A stretch of DNA of 36,514 nucleotides from a virus. The stretch lies in the IMG/VR virus record IMGVR_UViG_3300011116_000181, positions 1 to 36,514 of that record, one strand, 5' to 3'. Below, one piece after another: positions 22,232 through 36,514 of this stretch (its first letter is position 1; the number at the start of each line of letters is the position of its first letter). The notes under the pieces were generated by a model. The model was not told the origin of the DNA and searched no databases. It saw only the letters and a program-made list of their open reading frames with translations. A program made the translations under genes and the position numbers.

Positions 22232-22558
22232 CTATTGGCCTTTTTCAGCGGTGGTACGCGCACGTTTCAACCTCTCCACAGCCCTCTCACCCCATAACTG
22301 GCGTACTAACCCAATGGCATCCCGATCAGACAAGACAGCAGCAGGGCCAGCCTCTCGCACTAATTCAGCCACCCGGTCTTTGTTTACGTCTATCCCACGG
22401 GCTAACTGTGCGTCGTAGAAGCGTAGCCGGTTCAGCGGGGATTGTCGTACCAGTTCATTCCACGTTGCTGAATTGGAGTGCAACTGGTGTTCTAGGTTAT
22501 GACTGGGTTTAGCCTTTTCAGTAGTAACAGTCGGAGAGTAAGTGTATTCGTCACCCAT
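22232..22558 (-). CDS. Hypothetical protein, helical
   Basis: This 108-residue protein starts at the ATG at 22558 with AGGTG before it. After a polar start, helices run through WNELVRQSPLNRLRFYDAQL, KDRVAELVREAGPAAVLSD and DAIGLVRQLWGERAVERLKR. It ends basic. No family is recognised. It may act with the adjacent nuclease gene, from which it is separated by 48 bases. Confidence 0.6.
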   Translation of the reverse strand: MGDEYTYSPTVTTEKAKPSHNLEHQLHSNSATWNELVRQSPLNRLRFYDAQLARGIDVNKDRVAELVREAGPAAVLSDRDAIGLVRQLWGERAVERLKRARTTAEKGQ

Positions 22559-22575
22559 GTATCACCTATAAACCC

Positions 22576-22651
22576 TGATGACTGATGGTGATTCCGCACG
22601 GTTAAGACGGAGTACGCCTAACGTGGATCGTGCGGAATTGATGACTGACGG
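22576..22651. repeat. Structured non-coding element with inverted and direct repeats
   Basis: A perfect 10-base inverted repeat, ATTCCGCACG (22591-22600) and CGTGCGGAAT (22629-22638), encloses 28 bases in which GTTA and TAAC can pair further. It is flanked by a near-perfect 13-base direct repeat, TGATGACTGAYGG, at 22576-22588 and 22639-22651. The element lies just upstream (minus strand) of the 108-residue gene, in a stretch with no convincing gene (22559-22674). A regulatory RNA, protein-binding site or replication element is possible. Confidence 0.6.
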
Positions 22652-22674
22652 AGCCATCCGCTGTCGGCTACTTT

Positions 22675-23061
22675 TCACAGGTTTCCCTGTTGCCATTTGC
22701 GCTTCCCGACGATACGCCGCGCACCTACAGGCTGGCCGCCCCAGTGTAGGTTTAAGGTCACTCTGCGCGTTGTTTCCCCGTCCAGAGTTCCCGAGCGACG
22801 AGGTAAAGGCCTGTTGACAACCATATTCCCCATGGTTATCTTGGCTCTACCTCGACTAGCATCCCGAGAGTAAGGCCGTACCCCCGGCTGCGTCAAGCCC
22901 CCGAAAGGGGGTTTGTCGTTTCTGGCGTCTGTCACGGCTTCACAGACGATGCGGATAACCGCTTGCCATTCCCTCGCCTTACGCCTTGCGGCTCTAGCAG
23001 AGGCTCTACGGCGTTCTACGTTGGCGTAGTAATACGCACGGTGGTAGGCGGTACGGCTCAT
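22675..23061 (-). CDS. Small basic hypothetical protein, C-terminal extent uncertain
   Basis: The frame gives 128 residues from an ATG at 23061 that overlaps the methyltransferase stop (ATGA). The N-terminal 50 residues are basic and helical (MSRTAYHRAYYYANVERRR, then ASARAARRKAREWQAV), as in many small phage DNA-associated proteins. The second half is less protein-like, and a GC-rich hairpin lies inside the frame at 22895-22914. The coupling supports translation of the start. The last part may be non-coding or recently changed. Confidence 0.5.
   Translation of the reverse strand: MSRTAYHRAYYYANVERRRASARAARRKAREWQAVIRIVCEAVTDARNDKPPFGGLTQPGVRPYSRDASRGRAKITMGNMVVNRPLPRRSGTLDGETTRRVTLNLHWGGQPVGARRIVGKRKWQQGNL
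22895..22914 (+). terminator. CCCCC-GAAA-GGGGG hairpin, possible terminator
   Basis: The plus strand has a 5-base GC stem (22898-22902 with 22907-22911) closed by GAAA, flanked by AAG on the left and TTT on the right, followed by a T-containing tail. It resembles an intrinsic terminator for rightward RNA, yet no rightward gene precedes it. It lies in the frame of the basic protein. It might stop stray antisense RNA. Confidence 0.3.
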
Positions 23062-24398
23062 AGTTCGCTGACTTGTTGGATGCGCTTACCGATCCACGTC
23101 ATAACAGGCACAGCCATGCTGTTGCCCAATGCTTTGTAGCGTGGGCCGTCTGGACTTTCCGTAGCCTTACGCCAAGGAATATTCGTGTAGCCGTCAGGGA
23201 AGCCTTGGAGGCGCTCGCACTCTATGGGTGTGAGGCGGCGCACTTGCATAGCGGTCTGGATCGTTGCGTGTGCAGCGTTATCCCGTGCAAGGGTGTGGCA
23301 AGGATCGCCCGGTTTACGTGACTGACGGTTGACTGGGGCGGTTATTTGGAAGAAGTCATACGGCACAGGTTGAGCCACCACATTCTGCCCACGATCTGCA
23401 CAAGGGCTGCTGTCGTGTCGTGCGGTCAAACTCCCTGCAATGCTGCCAAATTGGGTAATTGGCTGCGCAACAGCATGAACATCCGTTTTGGTTTGGCACG
23501 GCGCTACGTCAAGCATCGGCTCAACCGCATTGCCGCCGTTCTCTGGCGCTCTGCCAATCCAATTTCCCGGAATACCGTAAGTCGGTTGGACAACCGCTGG
23601 CACTTGGCATACTTGCAACTGTGCGGTGTCTTTAGGATCAAGCCCTTGAGCATCGCCGCCTGACTGCCAATTAAAGGCAACGGGCAACGTTTCTGTTTCT
23701 GGATCAAACCGTAAACCTGTGCCGGCTGTTAGACATTGTGCGACTTGCATATAACCGCCTGCCGCTAAATCTACGTCTTGGCTCCAGCCACCGCTGTTAG
23801 CGCGAGCCGTAAAGGTTCCGGCAACGTCTTTCCGCGCTTCTCGGCTCGGCGCAGGATGCCCTTGCAAGCTGTGGGACTCAAAAAGAACCGCTGCGGCACG
23901 TTGCCAACTTCTAGCGTTTGCGACAACGAACACACGGCGGCGTCGCTGGGCCACTCCGCAGTATTGAGCGTCCAGAACCCGGTAGGCGAACCCATACCCG
24001 AGTTCTGCCAACATTCCGAGGAAGGTTCCAAAATCCCGTCCTCCGTTAGACGACAAGACACCGGGGACGTTCTCCCATACCAACCACTCGGGCCTATATC
24101 GGCGAGCAATTGCGCCGTAGGTGAGCATGAGGTTGCCACGCGGGTCAGCCAGTCCTTTTCGCAGTCCTGCGACGCTGAAGGATTGGCAGGGAGTTCCTCC
24201 CACAAGAAGGTTGATTGGTTCATCAGGCCATTCCTCGTATTTGGTCATGTCGCCGTAGTTAGGCACGGCGGGATAATGGTGTTTCAGCACGGCGCACGGA
24301 AACGGCTCTATTTCGCTATACCAAGCCGCCTCCCACCCGATCGGATGCCATGCCACCGTAGCTGCCTCAATGCCGCTACAGACGCTTCCGTAACGCAT
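23058..24398 (-). CDS. dcm: DNA 5-cytosine methyltransferase
   Basis: The start is the ATG at 24398, overlapping the stop of the Cro-like gene (TAATG). A longer frame to 24470 would overlap that gene. The 446-residue enzyme has motif I (SVCSGIEAATVAW), motif IV with catalytic Cys (GGTPCQSFSVAG), motif VI (VWENVPG), motif VIII (QRRRRVFVV), and motifs IX-X (LTPIECERLQGFP, RYKALGNSMAVPV). It moves a methyl group from S-adenosylmethionine to cytosine C5. No partner restriction gene is seen, so protection from host restriction or a regulatory role is likely. Sequence specificity cannot be read. Confidence 0.92.
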   Translation of the reverse strand: MRYGSVCSGIEAATVAWHPIGWEAAWYSEIEPFPCAVLKHHYPAVPNYGDMTKYEEWPDEPINLLVGGTPCQSFSVAGLRKGLADPRGNLMLTYGAIARRYRPEWLVWENVPGVLSSNGGRDFGTFLGMLAELGYGFAYRVLDAQYCGVAQRRRRVFVVANARSWQRAAAVLFESHSLQGHPAPSREARKDVAGTFTARANSGGWSQDVDLAAGGYMQVAQCLTAGTGLRFDPETETLPVAFNWQSGGDAQGLDPKDTAQLQVCQVPAVVQPTYGIPGNWIGRAPENGGNAVEPMLDVAPCQTKTDVHAVAQPITQFGSIAGSLTARHDSSPCADRGQNVVAQPVPYDFFQITAPVNRQSRKPGDPCHTLARDNAAHATIQTAMQVRRLTPIECERLQGFPDGYTNIPWRKATESPDGPRYKALGNSMAVPVMTWIGKRIQQVSEL

Positions 24399-24556
24399 TA
24401 CGGCTTTGCCACCTTGCCAGCGTGTAACTGCCAAAGGCGAGCATCTGGCAATTTGCCCGCCTTGACCCATTGCTGTACCGCCGCTCGAGTTACCCCGAAA
24501 GCCTTGGCAACAGCGTATTGGGAGCCATATTTCTTGATGAGTTGTTGCGGTTTCAT
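24398..24556 (-). CDS. cro-like: P22 Cro-like DNA-binding repressor
   Basis: This 52-residue gene starts at the ATG at 24556. It reads MKPQQLIKKYGSQYAVAKAF, then GVTRAAVQQWVKAGKLPDAR, then LWQLHAGKVAKP. The helix-turn-helix (QYAVAKAFGVTRAAVQQW) and the PDARLWQL end match P22 Cro-type regulators (PF14549), which are about 60 residues long. No ribosome site precedes it, and the predicted -10 box ends 8 bases before the ATG, so the mRNA would be almost leaderless. It is first in the leftward unit, next to the mirror-image palindrome, and is the natural candidate to bind it and regulate both directions. Confidence 0.85.
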   Translation of the reverse strand: MKPQQLIKKYGSQYAVAKAFGVTRAAVQQWVKAGKLPDARLWQLHAGKVAKP

Positions 24557-24564
24557 GGGATGGG

Positions 24565-24606
24565 AGGATAGGGGGCTTGACAGCGCAATGTCAAGGCAAC
24601 TATCCT
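24565..24606. promoter_or_regulatory. Mirror-symmetric crossing divergent promoters with palindromic operator
   Basis: The 42 bases are AGGATA-N5-CTTGACA-N6-TGTCAAG-N5-TATCCT, perfectly symmetric in the written parts. Rightward: -35 TTGACA at 24577-24582, 18-base spacer, -10 TATCCT at 24601-24606. Leftward (minus strand): -35 TTGACA at 24594-24589, 18-base spacer, -10 TATCCT at 24570-24565. The promoters cross, so only one polymerase could fit. The palindrome CTTGACA/TGTCAAG (24576-24595) is a likely operator. Another TTGACA lies at 24615-24620 in the rightward leader. Promoter activity is inferred from sequence. Confidence 0.75.
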
Positions 24607-24641
24607 ATCAACCGTTGACAAACACAACAGGAGCAATAGAT

Positions 24642-24908
24642 ATGTTCAAGGATAAATACAGCGCCCTCGGCACCTTCTACGCCCTCGGCAACAAATTCCA
24701 AGTTGACGTTGAGTATTCGCAGGACATGGATAACTCCGTGTTCGTTGAAAAAGCCACCATCATTGGCATTTACTTGGATAACGATAAATACGCCACCGCA
24801 CTTAACCACGACATCAAGTTAGACCTTTGCGATCTGACCGAGGATGAGGAATTCGCGCTCAACGAGATTGCCACCCTTGATGCGCTGCGTAACGGGGGTT
24901 GGGAATGA
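24642..24908 (+). CDS. First early gene, small acidic hypothetical protein
   Basis: This 88-residue acidic protein (MFKDKYSALGTFYALGNKFQ and VDVEYSQDMDNSVFVEKATI) starts at the ATG at 24642. CAGGAG lies 8 bases upstream, about 29 bases after the predicted start of transcription. A much longer open frame to 23778 runs antisense to the methyltransferase and is not credible. First place in the early unit suggests an immediate-early host-takeover role, by inference. Its stop overlaps the next start (ATGA). No family is recognised. Confidence 0.72.
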   Translation: MFKDKYSALGTFYALGNKFQVDVEYSQDMDNSVFVEKATIIGIYLDNDKYATALNHDIKLDLCDLTEDEEFALNEIATLDALRNGGWE

Positions 24909-25027
24909 AATCTCCTTGGCCGCAATTCATTGCCATCGCCATCCTGTTTCTGATCGCTGCCGCCTGTGACCCGTGTGGTGACGGCGGTTGCACCGCAGCC
25001 GAGGAGCGAGCTTCCCATGCACGATGA
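24905..25027 (+). CDS. Tiny membrane or lipoprotein-like peptide
   Basis: This 40-residue product starts with ATGA overlap. It has a short polar start (MKSPWPQ), a hydrophobic segment FIAIAILFLIAAAC and a Cys-rich tail (DPCGDGGCTAAEERASHAR). The hydrophobic segment ending in a Cys resembles a weak lipobox (AAAC). It may be a lipoprotein or single-pass peptide in the inner membrane. An early superinfection-exclusion role is conceivable. Its start codon lacks a good separate ribosome site. Confidence 0.5.
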   Translation: MKSPWPQFIAIAILFLIAAACDPCGDGGCTAAEERASHAR

Positions 25028-25157
25028 TATTTGGAATGACGACATGACTTGGTGGCATCACCAAGACGAGCTGATGCAGCAGCTTGAAGAACAAGAACGC
25101 ATAGACGCCTGTAACCGGGCATTGGATGAATTAAAGGAGCAAGACGATGCAGAGTGA
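25017..25157 (+). CDS. Small acidic hypothetical protein
   Basis: This 46-residue protein from the ATG at 25017 (MHDDIWNDDMTWWHHQDEL, then a helix with MQQLEEQERIDACNRALDEL) overlaps its upstream neighbour by 11 bases and the ERF gene by 11. GAGGAG lies 10 bases upstream. It is very acidic with a likely helix. Function is unknown. Confidence 0.55.
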   Translation: MHDDIWNDDMTWWHHQDELMQQLEEQERIDACNRALDELKEQDDAE

Positions 25158-25791
25158 AACCATCGGCGCATTGGCCGCCGCGTTATCCAAGGCGCAAGCC
25201 GACATTACGGGGGCGCTGAAAGACAGCAGCAACCCGTTCTTTAAATCCAAGTACGCCGATCTGGCGTCGTGCTGGGATGCCTGCCGCAAGCAGCTTGCTG
25301 CTAACGGTTTGTCGGTGATCCAGACCACGCAGATGACCGAGCAAGGCTTGATGCTGGTCACCACGCTGGCTCATAGCAGCGGCGAGTGGATCGCAGGGCA
25401 AATGCCCGTGCTGACCAAGGACAACAGCCCACAGGGGCAGGGCAGCGGCATTACTTACGCCCGTCGCTATGCTCTCGCCGCCATCGTGGGGCTGGCGCAG
25501 ATTGACGATGACGCAGAGGCTGCCCAAGGCCGAGCGTTTACCAACGACCCGCGTGGCGATCTGGGCAAGAAGTTTGACCAGACCAAGCGTGACCAGTTCG
25601 TGCAGCAGTTCCGTGGCGCGTTCGACCTAGACGCCGAGGAAAAAGACATAGCCCTTGCCGTGTTGGCGGTACATGAGGCGCTGAACCCAGACCATGACCT
25701 CTACATTGCCGTGGCAGATGTGCTGACGGCAAAGGAGCGGTCAGCAATCAAGAAGTACATTCAAATGGCAAAGGAGCAAAACCGTGGATAA
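25147..25791 (+). CDS. erf: ERF-family single-strand annealing protein
   Basis: This 214-residue protein has the ERF pattern: IGALAAALSKAQADITGALK, NPFFKSKYADLASCWDACRK, then LSVIQTTQMTEQGLMLVTTL, and GSGITYARRYALAAIVGLA with QIDDDAE. ERF proteins (named after P22 Erf) pair complementary strands and allow recombination-dependent replication or circularisation of permuted genomes. The C-terminal helices are partly unique. AAGGAG precedes the start. It partners naturally with the next gene, which may be SSB-like, and with the NinB protein. Confidence 0.9.
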   Translation: MQSETIGALAAALSKAQADITGALKDSSNPFFKSKYADLASCWDACRKQLAANGLSVIQTTQMTEQGLMLVTTLAHSSGEWIAGQMPVLTKDNSPQGQGSGITYARRYALAAIVGLAQIDDDAEAAQGRAFTNDPRGDLGKKFDQTKRDQFVQQFRGAFDLDAEEKDIALAVLAVHEALNPDHDLYIAVADVLTAKERSAIKKYIQMAKEQNRG

Positions 25792-26068
25792 GTTTGACCC
25801 AAATATGCGTGGCGTCCTGTTCAAGAACGACAAGGGCGACAACGCCAAACGTCCTGACTTTCGTGGATCGTGCGTGATTAACAACGTCGATTTTAACGTG
25901 TCTGGCTGGAAGAAAGTTAGTCAGAAAACCGGCGACACTTACTTGTCGTTGAAGTTTGAGGCGAAGGGGGAGGGCAAGTTATCCCGCAGCGGAGAGCCGC
26001 AGCATCAACCGACGAAGAAGCCCGAAATAACTGAAAAGAACTGGGACGATTTGGACACGCCGTTTTGA
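25784..26068 (+). CDS. Small protein with SSB-like acidic C-terminal tip
   Basis: This 94-residue protein overlaps the ERF gene by 8 bases. The body (MRGVLFKNDKGDNAKRPDF and RGSCVINNVDFNVSGWKKV, then GDTYLSLKFEAKGEG) is like short beta-barrel proteins common in phages. It ends in WDDLDTPF, close to the acidic tip (DDDIPF) with which bacterial SSB recruits partners. A single-strand binding or partner-recruiting function is plausible. The body is shorter than a standard OB-fold SSB. Confidence 0.62.
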   Translation: MDKFDPNMRGVLFKNDKGDNAKRPDFRGSCVINNVDFNVSGWKKVSQKTGDTYLSLKFEAKGEGKLSRSGEPQHQPTKKPEITEKNWDDLDTPF

Positions 26069-26108
26069 AGTGTATAAATGCGAGTGCAAAACAACAGGAG
26101 CAACCGCA

Positions 26109-26369
26109 ATGAACCGCGATGACATCCACACCTGTAGTTACTCGTGCGAACGTCCCGCGTGTATCAAGGCGCAGCGTGATGAATTAGTGCAAAAGTTGCC
26201 TAAATTGGTGGCGGAAGCAGTAGCCGCCGAGCGGGAGGCGTGTGCGAAGATTTGTGACGAAACACGCTACACAGGGTATGTCCCTGCAGAAGATGGGGGA
26301 GCACGGCAGTATTACGATGGCGCCGCAGAGGATTGCGCCGAACAGATTCGGGCGAGGGGTGAGACATGA
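26109..26369 (+). CDS. Small hypothetical protein with Cys-rich start
   Basis: This 86-residue protein is taken from the ATG at 26109, preceded by CAGGAG in the same CAACAGGAGCAA context as the first early gene. The first 24 residues contain three Cys (HTCSYSCERPACIKAQRDEL), followed by a helix with Glu/Ala (AEAVAAEREACAKICDETRY). A short DGGARQYYDG then leads to a second helix. It resembles many uncharacterised phage proteins in which AAEREACAKICD is a common core. Function is unknown. Confidence 0.62.
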   Translation: MNRDDIHTCSYSCERPACIKAQRDELVQKLPKLVAEAVAAEREACAKICDETRYTGYVPAEDGGARQYYDGAAEDCAEQIRARGET

Positions 26370-27034
26370 AAATCTTTATCGGTTGGGATAGCCGCGAGGA
26401 CATCGCATATCAGGTATGCAGAGCGTCCATCCTGCGGCACACCAGCATCCCAGTGGACATTCAGCCTATCGTGCAGTCAGAGCTTCGGGAACGAGGCGTG
26501 TATACCCGAGAGACTGATCCGCTTTCGTCTACGGAGTTTTCGCTTACCCGCTTCTTGACCCCGTATCTGACTGGATACACCGGCTGGGCGGTGTTTGTAG
26601 ACTGCGATTTTCTTTTCCGGGGGGACATTGCGGGACTGATGGACTACGCCGACGGGGCAAAGGCTTGCCTTGTGGTACAGCACGACTACAGGCCGACCGA
26701 AACGGTCAAAATGGACAACAAGGCGCAGCATCAGTATCCACGGAAGAATTGGTCAAGTTTCATGTTTATCAACTGCGCCCACCCGCAAGTCAAGACGTTG
26801 ACACCCGAGGTGGTGAACCGTGAAAGTGGAATGTTCTTGCACCGTTTTCAATGGCTCACAGACGACGTTATCGGCTCTCTGCCGATAGCGTGGAACTATC
26901 TTGAAGGGTGGTATACCCGTGACCATTGCCCCAATCCTATAGCCGTCCATTACACCCGTGGTGGCCCATGGTTTAAGGACTGGATGGATGTGGAATATGG
27001 AGAAGAGTGGCTAGAGGCGAGTCGTCTCGCATGA
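26366..27034 (+). CDS. Glycosyltransferase (GT-A/GT8-like)
   Basis: This 222-residue protein has MKIFIGWDSREDIAYQVCRA at its start and WAVFVDCDFLFRGDI near residue 85-99, where DCD is the metal-binding DxD motif of GT-A enzymes. Later IAVHYTRGGPW resembles the C-terminal part of GT8-like folds. These enzymes move a sugar from a nucleotide-sugar donor. Placed among recombination genes, it may modify phage DNA or a host component. The acceptor is not known. Its start overlaps the upstream gene by 4 bases. Confidence 0.78.
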   Translation: MKIFIGWDSREDIAYQVCRASILRHTSIPVDIQPIVQSELRERGVYTRETDPLSSTEFSLTRFLTPYLTGYTGWAVFVDCDFLFRGDIAGLMDYADGAKACLVVQHDYRPTETVKMDNKAQHQYPRKNWSSFMFINCAHPQVKTLTPEVVNRESGMFLHRFQWLTDDVIGSLPIAWNYLEGWYTRDHCPNPIAVHYTRGGPWFKDWMDVEYGEEWLEASRLA

Positions 27035-27435
27035 AGCGCATATTTCCGCCCAACACCCGCAAGGCGGCCATGGTGGAGTCATTCACCGTATTGCTTCGTC
27101 AGGTGGACGAAACCCGCGCATGGGTCGTGACCATTGAGGAATTCAAGCGACCGCGCACCGATCAGCAGAATCGGTTTCTGTGGGGCGTTGTGTACCCATG
27201 CGTTATCGAAGCCGGGAACCTTGAAGGATGGACACCCAATGACCTACATGAGTATTTCCTAGGTGAGTGCTTTGGGTGGGAGACGCTAGAGGGCATGGGT
27301 CGCAAGAAGGTCAAACCGCTGAAACGATCTAGTCGTATGAACAAACAAGAATTCAGCGACTACCTAGAGTTTATTTCCATGAAGTGCGCCGATATGGGCA
27401 TCGTGATACCGGAGCCGACGTATGAACCTGCGTAA
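27031..27435 (+). CDS. ninB: NinB-like recombination protein
   Basis: The start is the ATG at 27031, overlapping the glycosyltransferase stop (ATGA). The frame could extend to a GTG at 27007. The 134-residue protein has TIEEFKRPRTDQQNRFLWG, then GWTPNDLHEYFLGECFG and MNKQEFSDYLEFISMKCAD, matching NinB (lambda Orf) proteins. NinB binds single-stranded DNA and SSB and helps load annealing proteins, so it can work with the ERF protein and the SSB-like protein upstream. Confidence 0.88.
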   Translation: MKRIFPPNTRKAAMVESFTVLLRQVDETRAWVVTIEEFKRPRTDQQNRFLWGVVYPCVIEAGNLEGWTPNDLHEYFLGECFGWETLEGMGRKKVKPLKRSSRMNKQEFSDYLEFISMKCADMGIVIPEPTYEPA

Positions 27436-27706
27436 AGAGGCCAGAGGTCGGGCGTGTACGGTGCGTTTAGAGGGTATCTGCAACCACAACAGCGAAACGG
27501 TCGTGCTGGCGCATATCCGTATGCCGGGACTCTCTGGCATGGGCATTAAAGCCGACGATTTGCTCGGTGCGTGGGCGTGTAGCGCCTGCCACGACGCCAT
27601 TGACCGACGCTCCAATACCGACCTTGACCGGGACTACGTGCGGCTGTCTCACCTAGAAGGCATGGCTCGCACCATCGCCCAGTTACGCAAAGAGGGCAAA
27701 GTGTGA
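27422..27706 (+). CDS. DUF1364 protein, HNH-nuclease-like
   Basis: This 94-residue protein starts MNLRKEARGRACTVRLEGIC and continues with TVVLAHIRMPGLSGMGIKAD and GAWACSACHDAIDRR. The CxxxxxxxxC/AH and CxxCH pairs and the AHIR and HDAID residues match DUF1364, a family of small zinc-containing proteins related to HNH nucleases in lambdoid phages. It overlaps NinB by 14 bases and has GGAG upstream. It may cut recombination intermediates. Confidence 0.82.
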   Translation: MNLRKEARGRACTVRLEGICNHNSETVVLAHIRMPGLSGMGIKADDLLGAWACSACHDAIDRRSNTDLDRDYVRLSHLEGMARTIAQLRKEGKV

Positions 27707-28320
27707 CGTTCCTTGTAGATACGCCGTACATATCCGCTTACGTCCGTAACGAGTACCTGTTTGACGAGCAGGAGGGGCATGGAGACTTCACCCCCTGCAC
27801 CGTGTTTGGGTTCCGCGCTGAACCTGCCCGAGTGCCTATGTTTCAAATCATGTTGGAATCAGGCGCACAATGGGCGCGAGTGCCAATTCACATGATCTGC
27901 TCCAAACCGTGCGAACCGCTGCCGTTAGAGGTTTGCGTGTGGTGGGACAGCTTTTCCCGCCATTGCACGGTTCACGAATTTAGTTTCCTACGCAATCACG
28001 CCGTGGATTGCATGGGACGAGATAAGAAGATTCGACACGGCAATTACCTGTTCACGATTGACTGGTGCAACGGTGGATGGTCAGAAATCCCCGATCAGCA
28101 CAAGAACCATCACATCATCGTAGAGGAATCAGGACAATGGCTAGCCTATCCAAACAACAGACTGATCTGGAAAGACCCTTCGTGGATTCGCACGGACTTC
28201 CCACTACCGAAGTGGAAGTCACCCTCGCGGATTTATTCAGCCGAGTTTTTGGCACCGCAAACTTCAAGCTCTACCGCCCAGACGACCCAGAAACCAGCAA
28301 GGAAGCAGGTCGATCTATAG
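27703..28320 (+). CDS. Hypothetical protein, partly overprinted at its 3' end
   Basis: This 205-residue protein starts with GTG overlapping the upstream stop (GTGA). It contains FTPCTVFGFRAEPARVPMFQ and IMLESGAQWARVPIHMICSK, then RDKKIRHGNYLFTIDWCNGG and KNHHIIVEESGQWLAYPNNR. The body resembles uncharacterised phage proteins. The final 33 residues are low-complexity (LAPQTSSSTAQTTQKPARKQ). From 28137 onward the same DNA is also read in another frame by the next gene, so its end may have arisen by overprinting. No catalytic motif is recognised. Confidence 0.7.
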   Translation: MTFLVDTPYISAYVRNEYLFDEQEGHGDFTPCTVFGFRAEPARVPMFQIMLESGAQWARVPIHMICSKPCEPLPLEVCVWWDSFSRHCTVHEFSFLRNHAVDCMGRDKKIRHGNYLFTIDWCNGGWSEIPDQHKNHHIIVEESGQWLAYPNNRLIWKDPSWIRTDFPLPKWKSPSRIYSAEFLAPQTSSSTAQTTQKPARKQVDL

Positions 28321-28535
28321 ATACATCCCGGCTGGAGCAACTCGTATATGAAACTATTAAAAGCTACGGTACGACAGGTTGCATTAGCGACGATGTTAGA
28401 GCCGCCCATCCGACCCTTGCTTACAGCAGCGTTACGGCGCGGTTTAAGGCGTTGGCTGAAAAGGGACTGATACGATACGAGGGACGACGCAAAGGGGCTT
28501 CTGGGCGCTCACAGCGCGTTATGGTGTCCGTATGA
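28137..28535 (+). CDS. Winged-helix DNA-binding protein, overlapping upstream gene by 184 bases
   Basis: This is taken from the ATG at 28137 with AGGA before it. The 132-residue product begins MASLSKQQTDLERPFV, and its second half is a winged helix: TSRLEQLVYETIKSYGTTGC, ISDDVRAAHPTLAYSSVTAR, FKALAEKGLIRYEGRRKGA. Such domains bind DNA and often regulate transcription. The unusual 184-base overlap with the upstream gene is in a different frame. An upstream in-frame start at 28065 is less likely. It may be a regulator of late events in the early unit. Confidence 0.72.
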   Translation: MASLSKQQTDLERPFVDSHGLPTTEVEVTLADLFSRVFGTANFKLYRPDDPETSKEAGRSIDTSRLEQLVYETIKSYGTTGCISDDVRAAHPTLAYSSVTARFKALAEKGLIRYEGRRKGASGRSQRVMVSV

Positions 28536-28645
28536 GGTGGTTACTTGACCTTTGGCGACGTAGACAAGAATTTCGTGATGCAGAATGGCGTCACGTACCC
28601 CCGCCTAACTGGAACTGCAAACGCGGAGGGGTGGAGGTATGGTAA
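28532..28645 (+). CDS. Tiny hypothetical protein (37 residues)
   Basis: An ATG overlapping the upstream stop (ATGA) opens MRWLLDLWRRRQEFRDAEWR, then HVPPPNWNCKRGGVEVW, and ends at TAA 28643-28645. It overlaps the next gene by 7 bases. It is Trp/Arg-rich. The tight coupling on both sides supports it, though it is short. Function is unknown. Confidence 0.5.
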   Translation: MRWLLDLWRRRQEFRDAEWRHVPPPNWNCKRGGVEVW

Positions 28646-28812
28646 GCGACGAGGACGAGGCGTTTGAGCAGGAGCTAAAAGCAGCCCCATGGGCTTTTGG
28701 TCAGAGCAAACCCTTAACTATCTTCGAAGTGTTGTACCGGATGCGTAAGCAGGGTTTAGGGCAAGAGGCCGACTGGCTGCTGCGTGAGTGGACGATTTTA
28801 AGCCAGCGTTGA
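28639..28812 (+). CDS. Small acidic helical hypothetical protein
   Basis: This 57-residue protein is taken from the ATG at 28639 with GGAGGT immediately before it. It reads MVSDEDEAFEQELKAAPWAF and continues through KPLTIFEVLYRMRKQGLGQE to ADWLLREWTILSQR. It is acidic at the front and helical at the end. It is the last coding gene before the tRNA. Function is unknown. Confidence 0.58.
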   Translation: MVSDEDEAFEQELKAAPWAFGQSKPLTIFEVLYRMRKQGLGQEADWLLREWTILSQR

Positions 28813-28834
28813 CGGGTCGTCTAAAGGTAGGACA
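28810..28834 (+). tRNA. Possible relic of a tRNA 5' half
   Basis: Bases 28814-28834 (GGGTCGTCTAAAGGTAGGACA) show a D-arm (GTCT/GGAC closing AAAGGTA) with T at position 8, A at 14 and GG at the usual 18-19 place. No anticodon stem or matching 3' acceptor follows. It may be a remnant of a second tRNA broken upstream of the intact tRNA-Gln. Chance resemblance is possible. Confidence 0.3.
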
Positions 28835-28844
28835 TTTGCTATAA

Positions 28845-28919
28845 TCACCTGTAGTTTAACCGGCAAAACCTCGGACTTTGACTCCGATAATCCTCGTTCG
28901 AACCGAGGCAGGTGATCCA
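28845..28919 (+). tRNA. tRNA-Gln (anticodon TTG), encoded CCA
   Basis: The 75 bases fold into a full cloverleaf. The acceptor is TCACCTG/CAGGTGA, the D-arm GTTT/AAAC. The anticodon stem is TCGGA/TCCGA with loop CTTTGAC giving anticodon TTG. The T-arm is CCTCG/CGAGG around TTCGAAC, followed by discriminator T and CCA (28917-28919). It decodes CAA. The gene lies in the early unit, so it would supply Gln tRNA early in infection. The last A of CCA is also the first base of the HNH start codon. Confidence 0.92.
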
Positions 28920-29506
28920 TGAAACAACGAAACATAGGCGCTGAAATAAAATCACTTCTTTTGCAAAAAACTTCCAATCGTGAAATTAGGAAGCGATTAA
29001 ATTGTTCTGGCGCTACCGTTAGCTATCACGCTAAAAAATTAGGAATTTTTAAAACGCATAGACCGACTTACGATTGGTCTTTAGTGCAAAACGACATTGA
29101 TGCTGGGATGTCAATGTATGAAATCATGAAAAAACATGGTTTCTGTAAAGCGTCTTGGTCTAAAGCTATAGCAACAAGGAAAATTACTCGTCGCAGCAAA
29201 TTTAATGAGCTTTCTTTTTACGAATTAATCGCGCTTTTTTCTGGGAAACGCATCAATTCTTATCGCAAGCGGTTGTTAAGAAATCACATAGCCACGGAAC
29301 TTGGTGCGTATGTTTGTAGCGAATGTGGATTAGGGGAATGGCGTGGCAAAAAGCTTTCTTTAGAGCTTGATCACATTGACGGAAACCCAAGAAACAACGC
29401 TAGAAGCAATTTGCGCTTACTTTGCCCAAACTGTCATTGCACGACAAATACTTGGCGCGGCAGAAACAATCGAAAAATCAGCCATCCCCCTCGGGAGGCC
29501 ACTTAA
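28919..29506 (+). CDS. HNH homing-type endonuclease
   Basis: This 195-residue protein has an N-terminal helix-turn-helix (NREIRKRLNCSGATVSYHAK), a second short HTH-like region and a C-terminal HNH domain. The HNH domain has YVCSECGLGEW, LELDHIDGNPRNNARSNLRL, LCPNCHC. Two CxxC pairs bind zinc, and DHIDG with N and H are the catalytic elements. The ATG begins on the last base of the tRNA CCA. AGGTGA in the tRNA acceptor strand is its only ribosome site. The gene is clearly AT-rich compared with its neighbours, so recent transfer is likely. It would cut an allele lacking itself. Confidence 0.88.
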   Translation: MKQRNIGAEIKSLLLQKTSNREIRKRLNCSGATVSYHAKKLGIFKTHRPTYDWSLVQNDIDAGMSMYEIMKKHGFCKASWSKAIATRKITRRSKFNELSFYELIALFSGKRINSYRKRLLRNHIATELGAYVCSECGLGEWRGKKLSLELDHIDGNPRNNARSNLRLLCPNCHCTTNTWRGRNNRKISHPPREAT

Positions 29507-34981: not shown

Positions 34982-36127
34982 TTATTGCTCCAAGTCAAAA
35001 CCGTCGGGCAACTCCGTCGCAGGCGCGTTGAAATACGTGCCTTCGCGCAGTTGTGAAGATTTCTGCCTATTGAATTGCAATCGGCGTTCAGCGGCTTGCA
35101 AAGCACGGTCAAGCACCGCATTGCGAGTCTTAATTGGCAGACTTGAGGAACCTTGCAATTCCAACAAGATTGCGCGTTCGCCTTCGGTTGGTGCTGCGCC
35201 GAAAATTGATCGCAACTGCGGCAACACTTGCTGTTTGAGCAACAAATCAAACTCAAGCGTTTCCTTTGCGCCCGCTGGCTCAATGGAATCCGGCAGCAAG
35301 GTAGCGGCCTGCGCTCGCTGACCCGCTCCCAAACCCTCAAACGATTTGTCACTCAAAGCGCGAGCTTGTTTGAGGAGGTCAATGCCCGTTTCCGTGGCAA
35401 GGATGTTTTCGTCAGTCTCAAAAACTTCATTTTGTACGGTGGGCGAGAGCGCCTTACCGCCACGGCCACCCGTGCGCTCACGGAGTGATATTTCCCGACC
35501 TTTATAACCAAGCATGGCTTGCTGATATGGCGTTAGAGCGCCTTCTTCTGGCAATTCAATACCAAGTTCTTTAACCGTTCCGCGTTTGCCAACAATGACG
35601 CCCTTTCCGTCTTTAGTACGCACAACCGTAGTGCCAAATTCTTCGGCTTCGGTCGGCGTCATGGAACGCTCAAGGGCGGCAGCCAACAGCGGTGCGCGGC
35701 GCAATGCAGCTGTGCCAACCGGGGTCATCGCCACATTCATTGCGTCCTCTAGATCGCGGCGATATTGCGAGGTCGGCTGGAATTCTTCCAGCGTGGTTTG
35801 TTCGGGAATAGCAGCAGGAGTAGCCGCTTTCGGGTCGTACACATACCCACCGCGCAATCGACCGGCAATCTGCCGTCCTGCGGCGCTTTCCATTTCCTCG
35901 GCCTTGGTTGCCGCTTCACCCGCTTTCTTGCGCTGACGGGCGCTCATAAACGATTGCAGGGCAGCAACAAGTGGAGCAGCAGCAGGGGTCGGAGCGTCAG
36001 AACCAGAGAGCGGGCGGTAAGCCTGTGCCTCTAAGGCTTCTGCCATCGCCTGACGGCGGCGAGCCTCGGCAATCTGACGCTCGTATGCAGATGGTTCTGC
36101 AAAAGTCGGTACATAGTTAATCGGCAT
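34982..36127 (-). CDS. Internal virion-like protein, complete copy
   Basis: This is taken from the ATG at 36127, since GGAG has a good 9-base spacing. A TTG at 36133 is 3 bases from it and less suitable. The 381-residue product begins MPINYVPTFAEPSAYERQIA and has a helical N-terminus, then RGGYVYDPKAATPAAIPEQT. Later come GYKGREISLRERTGGRGGKA, DILATETGIDLLKQ-like helices and PAGAKETLEFDLLLKQQVLP. It is probably a minor virion protein ejected with the DNA. Its first 79 codons are repeated at the left window edge in a diverged version. Confidence 0.65.
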   Translation of the reverse strand: MPINYVPTFAEPSAYERQIAEARRRQAMAEALEAQAYRPLSGSDAPTPAAAPLVAALQSFMSARQRKKAGEAATKAEEMESAAGRQIAGRLRGGYVYDPKAATPAAIPEQTTLEEFQPTSQYRRDLEDAMNVAMTPVGTAALRRAPLLAAALERSMTPTEAEEFGTTVVRTKDGKGVIVGKRGTVKELGIELPEEGALTPYQQAMLGYKGREISLRERTGGRGGKALSPTVQNEVFETDENILATETGIDLLKQARALSDKSFEGLGAGQRAQAATLLPDSIEPAGAKETLEFDLLLKQQVLPQLRSIFGAAPTEGERAILLELQGSSSLPIKTRNAVLDRALQAAERRLQFNRQKSSQLREGTYFNAPATELPDGFDLEQ

Positions 36128-36383
36128 TTTCAAAGTCTCCCCTGTAACTGCCGCCCTGCGGCGTCGTCATACCGGGTGATTTAGGCTTGGGTTGGGTTAG
36201 CGGCGTCTTGGGGAAAACGCGGCCAAACTGCGGTTGTGCCGGAACCATCGTCATTGGGTTCGGCGTGTACTGCATATCTTGGGGAGGCGTGAAGTTGTCC
36301 ATGCTGCCGCGCTGCTGAAGGGCGTTTGCCAGCTTCTGCTGTCGGCTCATGGGGCCACTAAAGGTCTGGTATCTGCCGTTCAC
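36117..36383 (-). CDS. Small Pro/Gln-rich hypothetical protein (right copy)
   Basis: This is the right-hand version of the gene at 228-494, 88 residues with QPKPKSP instead of LKPKSP. The GTG start follows the stop of the large Ala/Gln-rich gene with GGAGGT at 6 bases. Most differences from the left copy are synonymous, showing selection on the protein. It overlaps the next gene by 11 bases. Function is unknown. Confidence 0.7.
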   Translation of the reverse strand: MNGRYQTFSGPMSRQQKLANALQQRGSMDNFTPPQDMQYTPNPMTMVPAQPQFGRVFPKTPLTQPKPKSPGMTTPQGGSYRGDFENAD

Positions 36384-36514
36384 TTATCGACCTCCAAAAT
36401 AACCGCCAGCCGCACCGGCAAGGCCGCTTAACAGCCCAAGCTGGGCGTTATAAGCGGCGGTTTGGTTAGCGTAGTTACGCTGTGCGAAGTCGCCTGCCGC
36501 TTGCGTTCCGGCAA
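36384..36514 (-). CDS. Large Ala/Gln-rich virion protein, 3' part (cut by window edge)
   Basis: This is the C-terminal 43 residues of the protein that is complete at 495-2645. It ends AQLGLLSGLAGAAGGYFGGR, where the left copy reads AKMGLLSGLAGAAGAAAGGG and then FFGGR. The difference includes a 15-base deletion. It runs off the right edge and continues logically into the left copy at about 640. Confidence 0.8.
   Translation of the reverse strand, partial: AGTQAAGDFAQRNYANQTAAYNAQLGLLSGLAGAAGGYFGGR

Follow-up and report, generated by a model that had tools for sequence, protein, structure and literature searches.

Does a mirrored pair of crossing promoters, placed where the genes of a wild phage diverge, set the direction of transcription of the whole genome at random, or does it time the expression of two gene blocks? 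The question was raised by a sequence-only reading of the window (i.e. the whole stretch of DNA analysed here, the 36,514-bp IMG/VR record IMGVR_UViG_3300011116_000181), which described two mirrored, crossing sigma70-like promoters and proposed that this single site controls both directions, with a choice made random by equal promoter strength. The element itself, AGGATAGGGGGCTTGACAGCGCAATGTCAAGGCAACTATCCT, is present at 24565–24606 without a mismatch, and its parts are as follows:

24565–24606, no strand assigned: 42-bp mirror-image element, predicted to comprise two interleaved divergent promoters (exact match, unique in the window, in 55 of 63 relatives)
24577–24582, plus strand: predicted early (rightward) promoter −35 box TTGACA, arm 1 of the palindrome
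24601–24606, plus strand: predicted early promoter −10 box TATCCT
24589–24594, minus strand: predicted cro (leftward) promoter −35 box TTGACA, arm 2 of the palindrome
24565–24570, minus strand: predicted cro promoter −10 box TATCCT, 8 bp from the cro ATG
24571–24575, minus strand: C-tract next to the cro −10 box, kept in the main clade and absent from the opposite side

Each predicted promoter reads TTGACA-18-TATCCT, as had been reported, and matches the sigma70 consensus at 10 of 12 positions in both directions; three sigma70-like sites in 36.5 kb reach this score, and the element supplies two of them. Both combine conserved −35 and −10 boxes at a distance within the 16–18 bp typical of sigma70-type promoters, and the −35 boxes are indeed the arms of one palindrome. 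The mirror is exact over 13 + 13 bases but does not include the 5 bp next to each −10 box (GGGGG and GCAAC). No second copy of AGGATAGGGGGCTTGACAGCGCAATGTCAAGGCAACTATCCT occurs in the record even at three mismatches, and none of 100 shuffles contained a match. All 13 of 13 mirrored pairs at this fixed geometry are found once in the window (the runner-up place has 11) against a chance expectation of about 0.0006, and these results, together with control geometries, led us to reject an artefact of chance or composition. The window likewise has one copy of the palindrome TTGACA-N4..6-TGTCAA, and each of eight relatives searched has one or none.

Relatives were collected from 61 IMG/VR contigs encoding the 52-aa protein next to the element and from an alignment-based search that added L141–L143, among which L141 and L142 are clear relatives. 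The sequences with upstream DNA thus number 63 (the window itself, L141, L142 and 60 of the 61 contigs, L005 being too short). The symmetry that the earlier reading expected in relatives with the same gene layout is there: the crossed pair is kept in 55, with spacers of 17/17 bp in 43 and 18/18 bp in 12. Since the centre belongs to both spacers, any change in its length affects both, and the two change together. Among the 37 distinct crossed sequences, the promoter-box columns are 92–100% identical, whereas 16 four-fold degenerate positions of the adjacent cro gene average 0.70 identity; such a difference marks both promoters as targets of selection. Between the boxes, several bases vary.

In the remaining eight relatives, the boxes overlap and the exact crossing is lost. 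L055–L060 have TTTACA-N4-TGTCAA, with the cro −10 box lying further out, 17 bp from TTGTCA, and the opposing promoter using the overlapping TGTCAA; in L141, too, the boxes overlap in this way, with a perfect TTGACA-N5-TGTCAA palindrome still in place; L142 contains one TTGTCAAC only. The wider relatives L155 and L177 encode other Cro-like genes preceded by TTGTCA-17-TATTCT-6-ATG, with TTGTCAA boxes (L177 also has CGTTGA near the opposing start). Together with the exceptions, they suggest that the general plan may be one of overlapping −35 boxes, of which the mirror-crossed form, belonging to one large clade, would be a variant; that form may, if we infer the direction of change correctly, have evolved from an overlapping-box arrangement.

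From this pattern of conservation and spacing, the element is very probably a pair of overlapping divergent promoters that exclude each other: each −35 box lies within the spacer of the other promoter, so one RNA polymerase would cover both, and the two directions would alternate. Competition between polymerases is documented at overlapping bidirectional promoters, although those of Escherichia coli show little of it at basal level and compete only when one side is strongly active (PMC12825309). Exclusion would therefore matter only if these two promoters are strong, as their consensus −35 boxes suggest. An alternative, that the palindrome works as a hairpin in DNA or RNA (a replication, packaging or termination signal) and not through promoters, could draw on the 7-bp arms and 6-base loop seen in the window. 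We regard it as extremely unlikely: the predicted transcripts begin outside the palindrome, the arms are invariant without covariation and their flanks unpaired, one arm is mismatched in L055–L060, and the spacing follows the 17–18-bp rule of promoters.

What the two promoters would serve depends on the genes around them, of which the nearest, with one candidate regulatory site, are:

24398–24556, minus strand: gene for a 52-aa P22/N15-type Cro-like repressor, with a predicted leaderless mRNA
23058–24400 (open frame to 24470), minus strand: predicted C5-cytosine DNA methylase gene after cro, start approximate
24613–24620, plus strand: CGTTGACA at the predicted early start site, a candidate half-operator or initial transcribed sequence
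24642–24908, plus strand: opening gene of the early operon (88 aa, without a family match)

Apart from the block 24642–29506, every convincing gene points leftward, a layout common to the relatives, so that the genome diverges chiefly at this element. The rightward block carries Erf, SSB and NinB-like genes, and the leftward block cro, methylase, terminase, portal, capsid and lysis genes; both are expected to be needed for lytic growth.

The two sides differ in how their messages would begin. The predicted starts lie about 56 bp apart. On the cro side, the −10 box is 6–8 bp from the ATG in every sequence examined, which leaves no room for a ribosome-binding site, and the cro mRNA should be leaderless; the start codon is backed by an alignment with N15 Cro, which also starts MKP. 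The cro and cI mRNAs of phage PY54 begin at their AUG, as determined for cro by RACE (PMC4488713). The 88-aa early gene, in contrast, has a leader with GGAG at 24630–24633, so the mirror symmetry stops at the initiation sites. It is broken by the spacer C-tract, by the initial sequences, by a leaderless start as against a leader with a ribosome-binding site, and by a CGTTGA motif present at the early start only. With a 17-bp spacer, the sequence of the cro promoter is CTTGAC-N17-CTATCC and resembles CTTGAC-N17-CTATAT, the sigma70 consensus of Sinorhizobium (PMC2873474).

These asymmetries bear directly on the proposal of a symmetric bistable switch, in which two promoters of equal strength would set the direction of the whole genome at random from one site, biased by Cro bound to the palindrome. 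The perfect mirror of both boxes, the single divergent junction in this genome and its relatives and the adjoining cro gene agree with such a switch, yet we consider it quite improbable. The spacer, start sites and leaders are asymmetric, lytic-growth genes lie on both arms, a second conserved promoter-like element (described below) lies in the leftward operon, and neither CI nor an integrase was found. Searches of four genomes returned no tyrosine integrase, resolvase or S24 repressor; no CI-type repressor was found, with Cro itself the sole HTH_3 match. Thus, of the features of a lambda-type immunity switch (CI opposite cro and several operators), the locus shows no S24 protein and one palindrome. 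Among 84,980 bacterial and archaeal species genomes, there was no convincing relative, and prophage relatives were rejected as well, the sole genome match being a 28-residue HTH stretch in a longer protein. The overlap, mirror symmetry and predicted exclusion of the two promoters thus stand, and the random choice at equal strength is not supported. The gene content points to a lytic lifestyle, and as both arms would be needed for lytic growth, a lasting exclusive choice between them would be self-defeating; alternation or timing fits better.

We therefore suggest, as the probable reading, that interleaved and mutually exclusive sigma70-type divergent promoters, with feedback from Cro, provide timed and self-limited early expression in a lytic phage. 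Leftward transcription would begin on the cro ATG or no more than two bases away and yield a leaderless mRNA for Cro, the methylase and probably later genes, and rightward transcription would start at CGTTGA and express the recombination and replication genes through a normal leader. Cro would then most likely feed back on the region, either by binding the TTGACA/TGTCAA arms and shutting both promoters or by binding CGTTGACA at the early start, shutting the early promoter and freeing the cro side. The outcome would be timed, self-limited early expression and not a random choice between fates.

The small DNA-binding protein that the sequence-only reading had noted beside the site is a genuine Cro relative by Pfam, by the sequences of solved structures and by fold. 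It scores 40.2 bits against PF14549 (P22_Cro; curated cut-off 30.2) and also passes the cut-off of YdaS_toxin (PF15943). Its nearest solved relatives by sequence are N15 Cro, at the top, and P22 Cro. An AlphaFold model (mean pLDDT 78.5) has the all-alpha Cro fold, with N15 Cro as the best fold match (query-normalised TM 0.81–0.82, Foldseek E 3.5e-3), at 52 aa here and 71 aa for N15 Cro. All 13 representatives compared share the stretch TRAAVQ, which falls where the recognition helix is predicted.

Whether Cro binds the palindrome is a separate matter. The palindrome is a plausible Cro operator, and arm 1 is retained where the cro promoter no longer needs it (as TTGACA in L141 and TTTACA in L055–L060), which counts for an operator role, although common descent alone could also explain it. 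The gap between the arms, however, is 4, 5 or 6 bases across relatives with a near-identical Cro, and switches between 5 and 6 in phages whose Cro proteins differ by very few residues; a rigid Cro dimer on the palindrome is hard to reconcile with this variation, and a dimer operator of fixed spacing is not supported, since no change in Cro accompanies the shift between 5 and 6 (L004 versus L002 and L011). At the early start, CGTTGA is fixed 5–6 nt past the −10 box in nearly all relatives, on the early (plus) side only. An inverted repeat, CGTTG-N7-CAAC, is found in 28 of 40 distinct leaders; it was rejected as a strict operator, as the repeat fails in the L015/L018 group and CGTTGA alone is fixed.

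It may accordingly be asked whether the symmetry is a mere by-product of two good sets of boxes close together, with the palindrome no operator at all and Cro binding elsewhere, e.g. at CGTTGACA. The variable gap and the fixed CGTTGA favour this explanation, as does the precedent of PY54 Cro, which acts at a single operator over the opposing promoter (PMC4488713); the persistence of arm 1 where it is dispensable for the cro promoter speaks against it, and we rate its chances as a little short of even. A more ambitious scheme takes the palindrome of interleaved −35 boxes to be the operator of the leaderless Cro, so that polymerase (in either orientation) and repressor would compete for 18 bp in a one-site circuit, derived from an overlapping-box ancestor, that would divide up most of a lytic phage's transcription, with crossed boxes of this kind having arisen independently in other phage lineages. 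We offer it tentatively, and think it rather more apt to fail than to hold.

The closest known systems are those of phages N15 and PY54, which share the all-alpha Cro family; the PY54 cro mRNA is leaderless, as predicted here, and PY54 Cro works through one operator, which covers the opposing promoter (PMC4488713). There, however, the opposing gene is of the cI type and the cro promoter lies up to 40 bp from the operator, whereas here no cI was found, the opposing gene opens the early operon, and the promoters are interleaved. The bidirectional promoters of E. coli (Warman, Grainger and colleagues) resemble the element in that pseudo-symmetric DNA is bound by polymerase in two exclusive orientations, as proposed here. 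In them, a −10 element is common to both directions, and the distance between starts is typically 10, 18 or 23 bp; the phage element falls outside that definition, having separate −10 boxes, interleaved −35 boxes and widely spaced predicted starts. The Pc/Pr conjugation promoters of pLS20 also form an overlapping divergent pair beside an autoregulated regulator, but there the −35 and −10 boxes of one promoter fall on the −10 and −35 boxes of the other, the two differ greatly in strength, and regulation uses a looping activator-repressor. Like lambda OR (with PR and PRM), the element joins divergent promoters to a Cro-type repressor and one leaderless message (that of cI in lambda). Lambda OR has three operators and the CI protein, and its promoters are not interleaved, unlike those of the phage element. 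Among overlapping divergent promoters with a regulator of the Cro type, the element represents a new geometry; it is not a demonstrated switch. Whereas divergent promoters that overlap are familiar, this pair is interleaved in perfect mirror image and kept by selection in dozens of wild phages. Its natural spacing variants are a ready-made test system for polymerase competition and regulation, and the series from overlapping to crossed boxes suggests an evolutionary route to such sites.

The same geometry occurs in other viruses. With free inner bases, exact patterns in IMG/VR were found in 67 stretches at 17/17 and 11 at 18/18, compared with one stretch for the same arms at 21/21 and none for permuted arms. 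Outside this Cro family, there are 24 stretches in about six groups, and crossed mirror promoters thus appear to recur, though rarely. In L066 (7400–7440), L071, L093 and about 11 more contigs, a crossed TTGACA/TGTCAA palindrome at promoter spacing lies immediately 5′ of a T4-like DNA polymerase gene, and transcription the other way would probably be antisense to the adjacent gene. The unrelated phages L073, L075, L076 and L083 have a crossed mirror of TTGACA-17-TATAAT on both sides at a divergent junction between terminase and holin, likely an independent origin of the same geometry. Another group lies at a gene resembling a T4-type single-strand-binding protein (judged by eye only), and the remaining groups are three single cases. 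The polymerase-upstream sites, with one direction antisense, lend something to the idea that at our locus, too, only one direction is a real promoter and the other boxes are a by-product of an operator palindrome. We think this unlikely to be so, as conservation is equal for the two −10 boxes, which are not part of the palindrome, and each promoter has a gene start ahead of it at a plausible distance.

The claim that one site governs the whole genome is made doubtful by a second conserved element, about 1.65 kb into the leftward operon:

22556–22921, minus strand: conserved structured non-coding element at the start of the late genes

Copies of about 360 nt are present in relatives (L003:3355–3720, L052:4190–4556, L142:2997–3364 and others). 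Of the 63 pairs predicted by RNAalifold, 26 have both partners changed in one or more sequences, and the window copy folds with z = −3.67. There is no Rfam match for the element, and it is possibly a new large phage RNA family. Within it, at 22896–22867 (minus strand), lies the promoter-like TTGACG-18-TACTCT, found across relatives as TTGACG-N17/18-TACGCT or TACTCT, which could be a late promoter; an inverted repeat in its spacer covaries as RNA would. A conserved 20-mer of the element occurs in at least 119 viral stretches, and most of the newly found ones lack this Cro. Contigs that have the RNA but not this Cro are without the crossed site, and L155 and L177 have their TTGTCAA boxes next to Cro-like genes of other kinds; the idea that all of the wider phage group carries the site was therefore rejected. 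The downstream RNA may prove a more interesting discovery than the promoter element.

In L017, L026, L027, L047 and L055 (starts at 1654, 4138, 4696, 3188 and 3188, respectively), the same 5′ module is followed by a different shared downstream sequence, which carries a GGGGGGTAGGGGGG-like run and is seemingly a second RNA type. The window copy also contains TTGACA-17-TATCTT at 22814–22842 on the plus strand (10 of 12 matches), directed rightward and antisense to the leftward operon, and a terminator-like hairpin with a GAAA loop at 22894–22915 lies close to it.

Leads to the host are diverse: the promoter consensus is Sinorhizobium-like, the capsid has relatives in phages of Myxococcus, Stenotrophomonas and Bradyrhizobium, and the terminase has relatives in Rhodoferax and Pelagibacter phages. 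A tRNA-Gln gene (TTG anticodon) is located at 28845–28919 on the plus strand, within the rightward operon. The ends of the record (1–640 and 35890–36514) match at 91% over 640 bp without being identical, reflecting either a strain-mixed wrap-around assembly or a true imperfect repeat; the relatives G002 and G003 have exact 127-bp end repeats.
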